NCBI GenBank assembly: GCA_903832665.1
Contig: CAILCG010000016.1
Span: 1 to 64,000 of the forward strand
Direction: 5' to 3'
Source of the DNA: an uncultured Methanomicrobiales archaeon
GTDB taxonomy: Archaea; Halobacteriota; Methanomicrobia; Methanomicrobiales; Methanospirillaceae
Length of the DNA: 64,000 bases
In this document: piece by piece, positions 3,349 through 6,313 of the stretch
How the letters are laid out: each line of letters opens with the position of its first letter
How positions within the stretch are numbered: position 1 is the first letter of the stretch
Notes under the pieces: model-generated
What the model was told of the DNA's origin: nothing
What the model saw: only the letters and a program-made list of their open reading frames with translations
Databases searched by the model: none
Made by a program: the position numbers and the translations under genes

Positions 3349-3464
3349 AACGGTACTCCTTCTTATTCATTCTCTCGGTTAAGACCCGATATATTCAGCG
3401 ATCTGACATTGATGAAAACGGTTACTTATTTCAGGGCAGTTCAATATTAGTAAGGTGATTCCAT

Positions 3465-3647
3465 TTGTCAAAACGGGCAGTTGATATGACGTTCCAGGCT
3501 CTTTTTACCCTTACCGATCTCCGGGTAATTCTCCGGGAGACCACACCCAGGCACGAACTGGACGAAAAACAACGTGAGCAGGCGCAACGTCTTCTGGATA
3601 ATCTCGAACGACAGGTCTCTTCACTAAAACAGGAGATGCTGAAATGA
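3465..3647 (+). CDS. 60-residue helical ORF coupled to pscS
   Basis: A 60-residue, charged and probably all-helical protein. Its second half looks like a coiled coil (DEKQREQAQRLLDNLERQ). It starts at TTG 3465 behind an AAGGTGA ribosome-binding site and overlaps pscS by four bases (ATGA), so translation of the two is probably coupled. I do not recognise the family with certainty. From established knowledge, methanogens carry a scaffold protein, SepCysE, that ties SepRS to SepCysS, and its N-terminal part is a small helical domain. A free-standing equivalent here is plausible but is inference. TTG start and short length keep confidence moderate. Confidence 0.6.
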   Translation: MSKRAVDMTFQALFTLTDLRVILRETTPRHELDEKQREQAQRLLDNLERQVSSLKQEMLK

Positions 3648-4825
3648 GATGCGCAAGCGGGATTGAGGCGCGGCAGGTGGATGAACTAGCGATAAATATC
3701 GATCCAATTCAGGCGGGTGGAAGACTTACGGGGGATGCGATGAAAGCCGTGATTGCGTACGGCGACGGGTATTCTGTCTGCGATAACTGCCGCAAACCAA
3801 ACCGTCTCGATTACATCAACAAACCCCCGATAGCAGAATTCCACAAGGATGTTGCGGGATGGTTGAACATGGATGCAGTCCGCACCGTGCCGGGTGCCCG
3901 GCGGGGATTCCAGGCCGTTGCCCATACCTTTATCCGTAAAGGAGATCCGGTCCTGCTCACATCGCTCTCCCATTATACAGAATTCCTGGCCATTGAGGGG
4001 GCGGAGGGAATTGCCTGCGAGATACCAGCTGACGATCACCATATTATCACACCGGATGCAGCCGCCGTCAAAATTGAAGAAGTGAAAAAACAGTCTGGCA
4101 GGGCGCCCGTTCTTGCTTTCATTGACCATGTGGACTACCAGTATGGGAATATGCACGATGTAAAAGGGATTGCAAAAGTCTGTCACCAGTACGATATCCC
4201 GGTCCTCTACAATGGTGCCTACACGGTCGGGATCATGCCCGTGAATGGAAAAGATCTTGGCGTGGATTTCGTTATTGGTTCCGGGCATAAGAGCATGGCA
4301 TCTCCCGCCCCGTCCGGGATCCTTGCAACAACAACAGAATATGCAGCAGAAGTCTTCCGCACGACCGCGATCACCGGGGATGTAACTCATCGTAAATTCG
4401 GGATAAAGGAGCCGGAGATGATGGGATGCACGCTGATGGGGGTGACCCTTATCGGGATGATGGCATCATTCCCGCATGTCAAAGAACGGGTAAAACACTT
4501 TGACCGGGAATTGGAGAACAACCGGATCGTGGTAGACGGACTTCTGGCTGTTGAGAGAACAAAAATTCTCTCAGAGATGCCCCGGAAACACACACTGACC
4601 CGGGCAGATACCATAGGTTCTTTTGACAGAGTAGCAGAAACCCATAAGAAACGAGGATTTTACTTCTCAAGTGCCCTTGAAGAGAAAGGCGTAACGGGAG
4701 TAATTCCCGGCGCAACGAAAGTTTGGAAGTTCAATACGTACGGCATGACTCAGAAGCAGGCACGGTATCTCGCTGACACATTTGGCGAAATCGCTCAGGA
4801 AAATGGGCTTACGGCAAGTAAATAA
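3644..4825 (+). CDS. pscS: Sep-tRNA:Cys-tRNA synthase
   Basis: A 393-residue PLP enzyme that converts phosphoseryl-tRNA(Cys) to cysteinyl-tRNA(Cys), the second step of tRNA-dependent cysteine formation in methanogens lacking the normal CysRS route. The sequence matches throughout: YSVCDNC carries the paired N-terminal cysteines (about residues 46 and 49) that the family uses for sulfur transfer, the PLP lysine lies in GSGHKSMASPAP (about residue 216), and a third cysteine is in PEMMGCTLMG. Length is normal. The start overlaps the upstream 60-residue ORF by four bases, which suggests a two-gene operon. A T-rich run follows the stop and may terminate transcription. Confidence 0.95.
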   Translation: MRCASGIEARQVDELAINIDPIQAGGRLTGDAMKAVIAYGDGYSVCDNCRKPNRLDYINKPPIAEFHKDVAGWLNMDAVRTVPGARRGFQAVAHTFIRKGDPVLLTSLSHYTEFLAIEGAEGIACEIPADDHHIITPDAAAVKIEEVKKQSGRAPVLAFIDHVDYQYGNMHDVKGIAKVCHQYDIPVLYNGAYTVGIMPVNGKDLGVDFVIGSGHKSMASPAPSGILATTTEYAAEVFRTTAITGDVTHRKFGIKEPEMMGCTLMGVTLIGMMASFPHVKERVKHFDRELENNRIVVDGLLAVERTKILSEMPRKHTLTRADTIGSFDRVAETHKKRGFYFSSALEEKGVTGVIPGATKVWKFNTYGMTQKQARYLADTFGEIAQENGLTASK

Positions 4826-5110: not shown

Positions 5111-6313
5111 TTACCGGTAACATTCACCGTGCTGTGAGAGATCGAGGCCCACGTATTCTTCTTCTTCGCTTACGCGGAGCCCCATTGTCTTGTCAACAGC
5201 AATGGCGATTACACAGGTAACAACAAACACGTAAATTGTGACAACCACTGCACCGAAAACATTTGCGGTAAACTGATGTACATTTCCTTCGAGCAGGCCG
5301 GAATAACTGCAGACTGCAGTTGTTGCAAATATTCCTGCAAAGATCGTACCCATAAAACCTCCAACCCCGTGGACGGCCCATGCATCGAGACTCTCGTCCA
5401 TCCCGCTCTTTATCCTCAAGAGCATTGCCTTATAGCAGACAATTCCGGCGATCGCACCAATCAGGACAGCAACCAGAGGAGTGACGTACCCGGCAGCTGG
5501 AGTAATTGTTCCCAACCCAGCTACGGCTCCGGTGACCATCCCGAGAGAACTGGGCTTGCCATAGTACCAGCTGATCGCCATCCAGGAAAGTGCACCGGCT
5601 GCCGCTGCGGTGTTGGTCACAACGATTGCGTTCACTGCCATACCATTGGCTGCAAGAGCACTGCCGCCATTGAAACCGAACCACCCGAACCAGAGAAGAG
5701 CAGCTCCCAGGAGAGTCATCGGAATATTGTGGGGTTCCATAGAGTAATGACCGTACCCTGCACGTTTACCAATTACAATTGCAAGTGCCAGTGCGGCAAA
5801 CCCGGCACTGATATGTACGACGATTCCGCCGGCAAAATCAATAACACCAATTGCAGCAAGCCAGCCACCTCCCCACACCCAGTGGGCGATTGGATCGTAC
5901 ACCAGTGTTGTCCAGAGTAATGAAAAGATGATAAATGAACTTAATTTTACTCTCTCAGCAAGACCCGATGTTACAATTGCAACAGTGACCGCGGCAAAAG
6001 TCATCTGGAAAAGCATGAACAGGAGCGGGGGATACCCTGCTTCTCCGGGATTCATGCTCACGCCGTTCAGCCCAAGATTCCCCAGGTTTCCAATAAGTCC
6101 GCTTACATCGGGTCCAAAGGATAAGGTATACCCCACAAAAATCCACTGAATACTCACAAGGGCAAAAGCAACGAAGGAAAGTGAGATCATGGAGATAAAA
6201 TTCTTCTTTCGCACAAGTCCGCCGTAGAAAAAACCTACGCCGGGTGTCATCAGCATCACGAGCGCTGATGCCGTGATAAGCCAAGCAATGGTGGATCCGC
6301 TATCTGCAACCAT
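5111..6313 (-). CDS. amt: Ammonium transporter Amt
   Basis: An AmtB-family ammonium channel of about 400 residues with eleven predicted membrane segments. Family signatures are present: [11 protein letters not shown] near the N-terminus, [18 protein letters not shown] with the pore histidine, [11 protein letters not shown], and [15 protein letters not shown] with the second pore histidine. It imports ammonium for assimilation. I chose the ATG at 6313 because it gives the usual Amt N-terminus; a TTG at 6382 would add 23 residues of atypical sequence. In many archaea amt is followed by glnK, the PII protein that blocks the channel. None is present on either side here. Confidence 0.93.

Follow-up and report, generated by a model that had tools for sequence, protein, structure and literature searches.

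What is the small open reading frame (ORF) that runs into the start of pscS, the SepCysS gene, in an uncultured Methanomicrobiales archaeon, and does its product do the work of the methanogen scaffold SepCysE? The ORF occupies positions 3465 to 3647 on the forward strand of the window, the whole 64,000-nucleotide stretch analyzed here (positions 1 to 64,000 of contig CAILCG010000016.1, assembly GCA_903832665.1), and its translation is LSKRAVDMTFQALFTLTDLRVILRETTPRHELDEKQREQAQRLLDNLERQVSSLKQEMLK, followed by the stop. As the initial annotation had it, the product has 60 residues and its TGA stop shares an ATGA, at 3644, with the ATG of the next ORF. That ORF (3644 to 4825, forward strand; 393 amino acids) is SepCysS according to NF006810 (E value, 9.1e-177) and TIGR02539 (E value, 3.4e-115; 385.0 bits against a cutoff of 365.25). 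Upstream of the TTG start of the small ORF, a GGTGAT at 3454 to 3459 on the same strand, read by eye, resembles a ribosome-binding site.

To follow the ORF through related genomes, we searched 60 of them, comprising the window's own genome and others of the same genus and order, with the window peptide and found matches in 59. A separate ("split") small gene is present in 58, the window's own genome included. From these genomes we fetched 60 split loci, and every one has pscS next, in the same orientation and no more than a few bases away. One genome (G016; 82% complete) gave no match to the window peptide in this search, and another (G011) gave two weak matches, both in long frames, of which the one fetched (L065) is a fused form. 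The TTG start falls in the same alignment column as ATG, GTG, or TTG across the 60 split loci, with CTG in one (L057), and many of these loci have a GGTGA-like sequence shortly 5' of the aligned start.

Using SepCysS as the query avoids searching with the small ORF itself. This search confirmed 124 stretches, of which the best 80, 66 to 91% identical, were used; these loci overlap with the 60 genomes above, so the two samples are not independent. A small ORF lies directly 5' of SepCysS in all 80, always ends in TGA, and has a length, counted from the aligned start, of 59 or 60 codons; in 68 its end overlaps the SepCysS start in an xTGA, and in 59 a GGTGA, GGAGG, GAGGT, or AGGTG motif precedes the aligned start. 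Named hosts include Methanoregula, Methanoculleus, Methanofollis, Methanolinea, Methanocalculus, Methanocorpusculum, and Methanospirillum, and one bin carries the label delta proteobacterium; the nearest named SepCysS genes, 88 to 91% identical, are labeled Methanoregula sp. or Methanomicrobiales archaeon. When the window's four neighbor genes were used as queries, at least one recurred in 6 of the 80 loci (up to 3 kb of flank on each side), suggesting that the pair travels without its surroundings. Compared with the window gene, dN/dS was 0.05 to 0.135 in 9 of 11 pairs, dS being saturated in the other 2. The presence across genomes, the linkage to pscS, the overlap pattern, and the low dN/dS together place the ORF far beyond chance, and we conclude that it is a real gene. 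It is conserved before pscS in the relatives, a check that the initial annotation had proposed.

We then asked what the peptide is related to. As a single sequence, the window protein gave chance-level matches only in Pfam, NCBIfam, and PDB, with no match to DUF2100 or to MJ1481, the SepCysE of Methanocaldococcus jannaschii. Families were more informative. Profile A1, built from 32 split peptides, had MJ1481 as its best match among 177,635 PDB sequences (E value, 0.021), and profile A2, with 29 rows of split and fused domains, also placed it first (E values, 0.0019/0.0047; next unrelated match, 0.3). The aligned stretch, MJ1481 residues 54 to 97, falls within the N-terminal domain (residues 35 to 101) that is bound to the SepCysS dimer in M. 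jannaschii crystal structures (PMC5688128), so that the domain matched is the SepCysS-binding one. A direct comparison of the family with the MJ1481 segment by hhalign gave a probability of 92%. Part of MJ1481 falls in Pfam DUF2100, the Pfam family matched by the most A2 members (7 of 29 at E values of at most 0.1; the window protein is not one of the 7). The homology to SepCysE thus rests on the family profile and not on the single sequence. MJ1481 keeps L16, P28, and H30 of the family but has Asp and Tyr in place of the family's invariant R20 and R24, and the contact surface may therefore differ from that of SepCysE. In the phylum, profile A1 has a match at E values up to 0.01 in 160 of 392 genomes, split and fused forms taken together.

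The AlphaFold model of the peptide is a two-helix hairpin (helices at residues 3 to 25 and 34 to 58; mean pLDDT, 95.6). "Coiled-coil-like," as the peptide had been described, was therefore nearly right: the helical character stands, and the predicted shape is a hairpin. Among 350,542 chains searched with Foldseek, the five best are all SepCysE (E values, 0.09 to 0.21; probability, 0.99 to 1.00), the best two with an rmsd of 0.9 to 1.0 over 49 columns and the other three with 5.4 over 61. VIA-align does not discriminate on this model: 13 chains had a Z score of at least 8, and the SepCysE chains, at 7.5 to 7.6 (ranks 30, 31, and 40), scored the same as many unrelated helical hairpins. In this alignment SepCysE residues ∼41 to 100 pair with the whole peptide.

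The association with SepCysS also occurs as a natural fusion. Eight of the weak peptide matches in long frames were fetched, and each turned out to be this domain placed N-terminally in a SepCysS paralog. The window's genome has three SepCysS genes above the family cutoff: the window copy, with its split gene directly 5'; a copy on contig C10, with a split gene of its own directly 5'; and a fused form of 454 amino acids on contig C14 (L075). A model of this fusion had a mean pLDDT of 68.4, falling below 50 in the linker (residues 61 to 79), and at such low pLDDT no interface was read from it. The C10 pair of small gene and pscS (C10:161740-163079; L031 and L076) shows 92% and 88% identity to the pair in the window and has different neighbors; it is either a recent duplicate or from a contaminating relative (estimated contamination of the genome, 2.04%). 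At another locus (G151:C130; L207), an 85-amino-acid frame ∼0.5 kb before a fused gene carries an extra copy of the domain, so that both forms occur in one locus.

The peptide has a name. Mukai et al. (2017, mBio; PMC5424206) called it SepCysSn, or SepCysSN when fused, and described it as a split gene before SepCysS or as an N-terminal fusion, accompanying SepCysS of clade VII and, in a few cases, of clades I and VI; it is also described in PMC8762117. In two marks of the published peptide, a separate small gene directly 5' of SepCysS and the same domain fused elsewhere, the present gene agrees, and we see no essential difference from SepCysSn as presented in PMC5424206. A host with SepRS and without full-length SepCysE, a typical if not strictly defining trait of SepCysSn, is found here too. 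The finding is thus correct but already known in kind, having been named and described in 2017: the initial annotation, which had supposed that a stand-alone version of the domain had never been described, was right in substance about a stand-alone, SepCysE-like, SepCysS-contacting domain, and its claim of novelty fails. Overall it is partly supported. The words Methanoregula and Methanomicrobiales are absent from the main text of PMC5424206, and the per-genome counts for the order Methanomicrobiales come from the present analysis. The present tests do not depend on the original description, and they confirm that a methanogen lineage lacking SepCysE keeps the scaffold's SepCysS-binding piece, with SepCysSn a near-constant companion of SepCysS there. 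By description only, the arrangement can be likened to PylSn and PylSc of split PylRS (PMC5424206), a different aminoacylation system in which a small adapter peptide likewise stands alone in certain lineages and is part of a fusion in others.

How far does the likeness to SepCysE extend? As described in PMC5688128, SepCysE residues 1 to 24, an N-terminal helix, bind SepRS, residues 35 to 101 bind SepCysS, and the Toprim-like C-terminal domain (residues 111 to 213) carries tRNA, with both linkers essential in Methanococcus maripaludis. The 60-residue peptide covers part of the N-terminal domain only: the SepRS-docking helix has no counterpart, the linkers are missing, and the tRNA-binding domain is absent by length. 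The SepRS gene of the window's genome is on another contig (C4), and at the three docking loops its product reads VSPEG/WEGT/AARCG against ILDEF/FNGE/ALVSN in M. jannaschii, 3 of 14 residues being identical in this comparison by eye from one alignment. The control was SepRS of M. maripaludis, which functions together with SepCysE; its first and third loops read VMDEI and AFVSN, and loop two did not align cleanly. With the SepRS- and tRNA-binding parts missing and the docking loops mostly changed, it is unlikely, judged from sequence, that SepCysSn bridges to SepRS by the known interface or carries tRNA as SepCysE does, and the linking and channeling role proposed in the initial annotation finds no support.

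Beside the features observed directly, namely the gene, its conservation, its overlap with pscS, its homology, its predicted fold, and its natural fusion to SepCysS, stands the assignment of a function. Very probably the ORF is sepCysSn, a stand-alone equivalent of SepCysE residues ∼41 to 100, whose product would bind SepCysS as a subunit and not serve as a channeling bridge. The stop-start overlap suggests translational coupling, which would deliver both chains in similar amounts and in one place. Two SepCysSn chains may bind one SepCysS dimer along its 2-fold axis, since the N-terminal domain of SepCysE does so in the M. jannaschii crystal structures. As a constitutive subunit, SepCysSn would stabilize or shape SepCysS for the Sep-to-Cys step, with a presumed effect on catalysis, and perhaps also shape the tRNA-binding side of the enzyme. 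A testable question follows: what does the minimal adapter do when it no longer docks SepRS or carries tRNA?

A more ambitious reading would make the peptide a minimal but functional SepCysE, another surface of which links SepRS to SepCysS in a transsulfursome that hands over Sep-tRNA. The homology to SepCysE is what such a reading would predict, and R20 and R24, kept throughout the family and not in MJ1481, could form a different interface. We nevertheless consider it improbable: nothing in the peptide corresponds to SepCysE residues 1 to 24 or 111 to 213, the docking loops of the host SepRS mostly differ from those of M. jannaschii, and the SepRS gene lies on another contig. Far less probable is that the ORF acts like a leader, its main role being translational coupling of pscS and its peptide dispensable. 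The frequent xTGA junction would suit a leader, but constraint at the protein level, residues invariant across the order, a confident predicted fold, and fusion to SepCysS are all unexpected of one, and we rejected this explanation. That an unrelated small helical protein precedes pscS by chance has a negligible probability and was likewise rejected, for although helical hairpins are common, VIA-align is unspecific, and the single sequence does not match SepCysE, it is contradicted by SepCysE topping two different kinds of search (profile and Foldseek), by the fusion of the domain to SepCysS, and by the small gene before pscS in 80 of 80 loci.

We also compared the split and fused forms on the SepCysS tree. 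We assembled 175 SepCysS cores, from which identical ones were removed and in which truncated copies of one gene were not merged. A split gene lies 5' in 123, 20 are fused, 2 (the same G221 locus) have the domain nearby on the other strand, and in 30, the best-scoring TIGR02539 matches and not a random draw, no domain was found; the searches behind this collection favor the split form, and the counts are therefore not frequencies. Trees of 48 and 91 rows were made from thinned sets of these cores. The 48-row tree, whose root was set on 8 SepCysS lacking the domain, has the fused rows paraphyletic to a single split clade (95/85), which would mean fission, and none of 200 bootstrap trees united the fused rows; in the AU test a single fused clade was not rejected (P = 0.17). 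A quick tree of 91 rows has the same shape, with the split rows as one group (SH-aLRT, 84). Published work suggests that fusion of the peptide to SepCysS took place in modern archaea. Fission of an ancestral SepCysSN, if true, would be the opposite. It is improbable, though conceivable, that the Methanomicrobiales peptide arose by such fission as a dissociable subunit with a job of its own and that its family-specific R20/R24 surface serves to bring SepRS, a sulfur donor, or U73 tRNA-Cys to SepCysS.

Searching 196 genomes with DUF2100 gave 7 matches at E values up to 0.01, 2 of them over the cutoff. Two of the seven are SepCysSn-like (G221 and G084), four are in long frames aligned to the later part of the profile, and the seventh is a 161-amino-acid frame in G068. 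The window's genome, 98.8% complete, had no DUF2100 match, and the M. jannaschii positive control was detected. A divergent 66-amino-acid stand-alone homolog (L190; G221:C30) passes the curated DUF2100 cutoff (26.7 against 23) and matches profile A1 weakly (E value, 0.02); its gene and the SepCysS gene beside it lie on opposite strands and point away from each other. Another divergent stand-alone SepCysSn-like peptide (L206; G237:C179) is also closer to SepCysE's DUF2100, and SepCysS was not found within 3.1 kb around its gene.

Near the fused gene of the window's genome (L075; contig C14:145000-157000) lie two tRNA-Cys(GCA) genes, at 887 to 959 and 5191 to 5262 of that locus. Position 73, read by eye in both, is G in the one before a CysRS-like ORF, itself recognized by eye, and U in the one immediately 5' of the fused SepCysSN gene. 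This fits separate tRNA pools for CysRS and for SepRS/SepCysS; a G73 tRNA-Cys has been reported in some Methanoregula (Perona 2018, as quoted in PMC8762117). A tRNA-Cys gene was found just 5' of fused SepCysSN in 9 of the 16 fused loci scanned (L061, L063 to L068, L199, and L209), in agreement with the account of clade VII SepCysS in PMC5424206.
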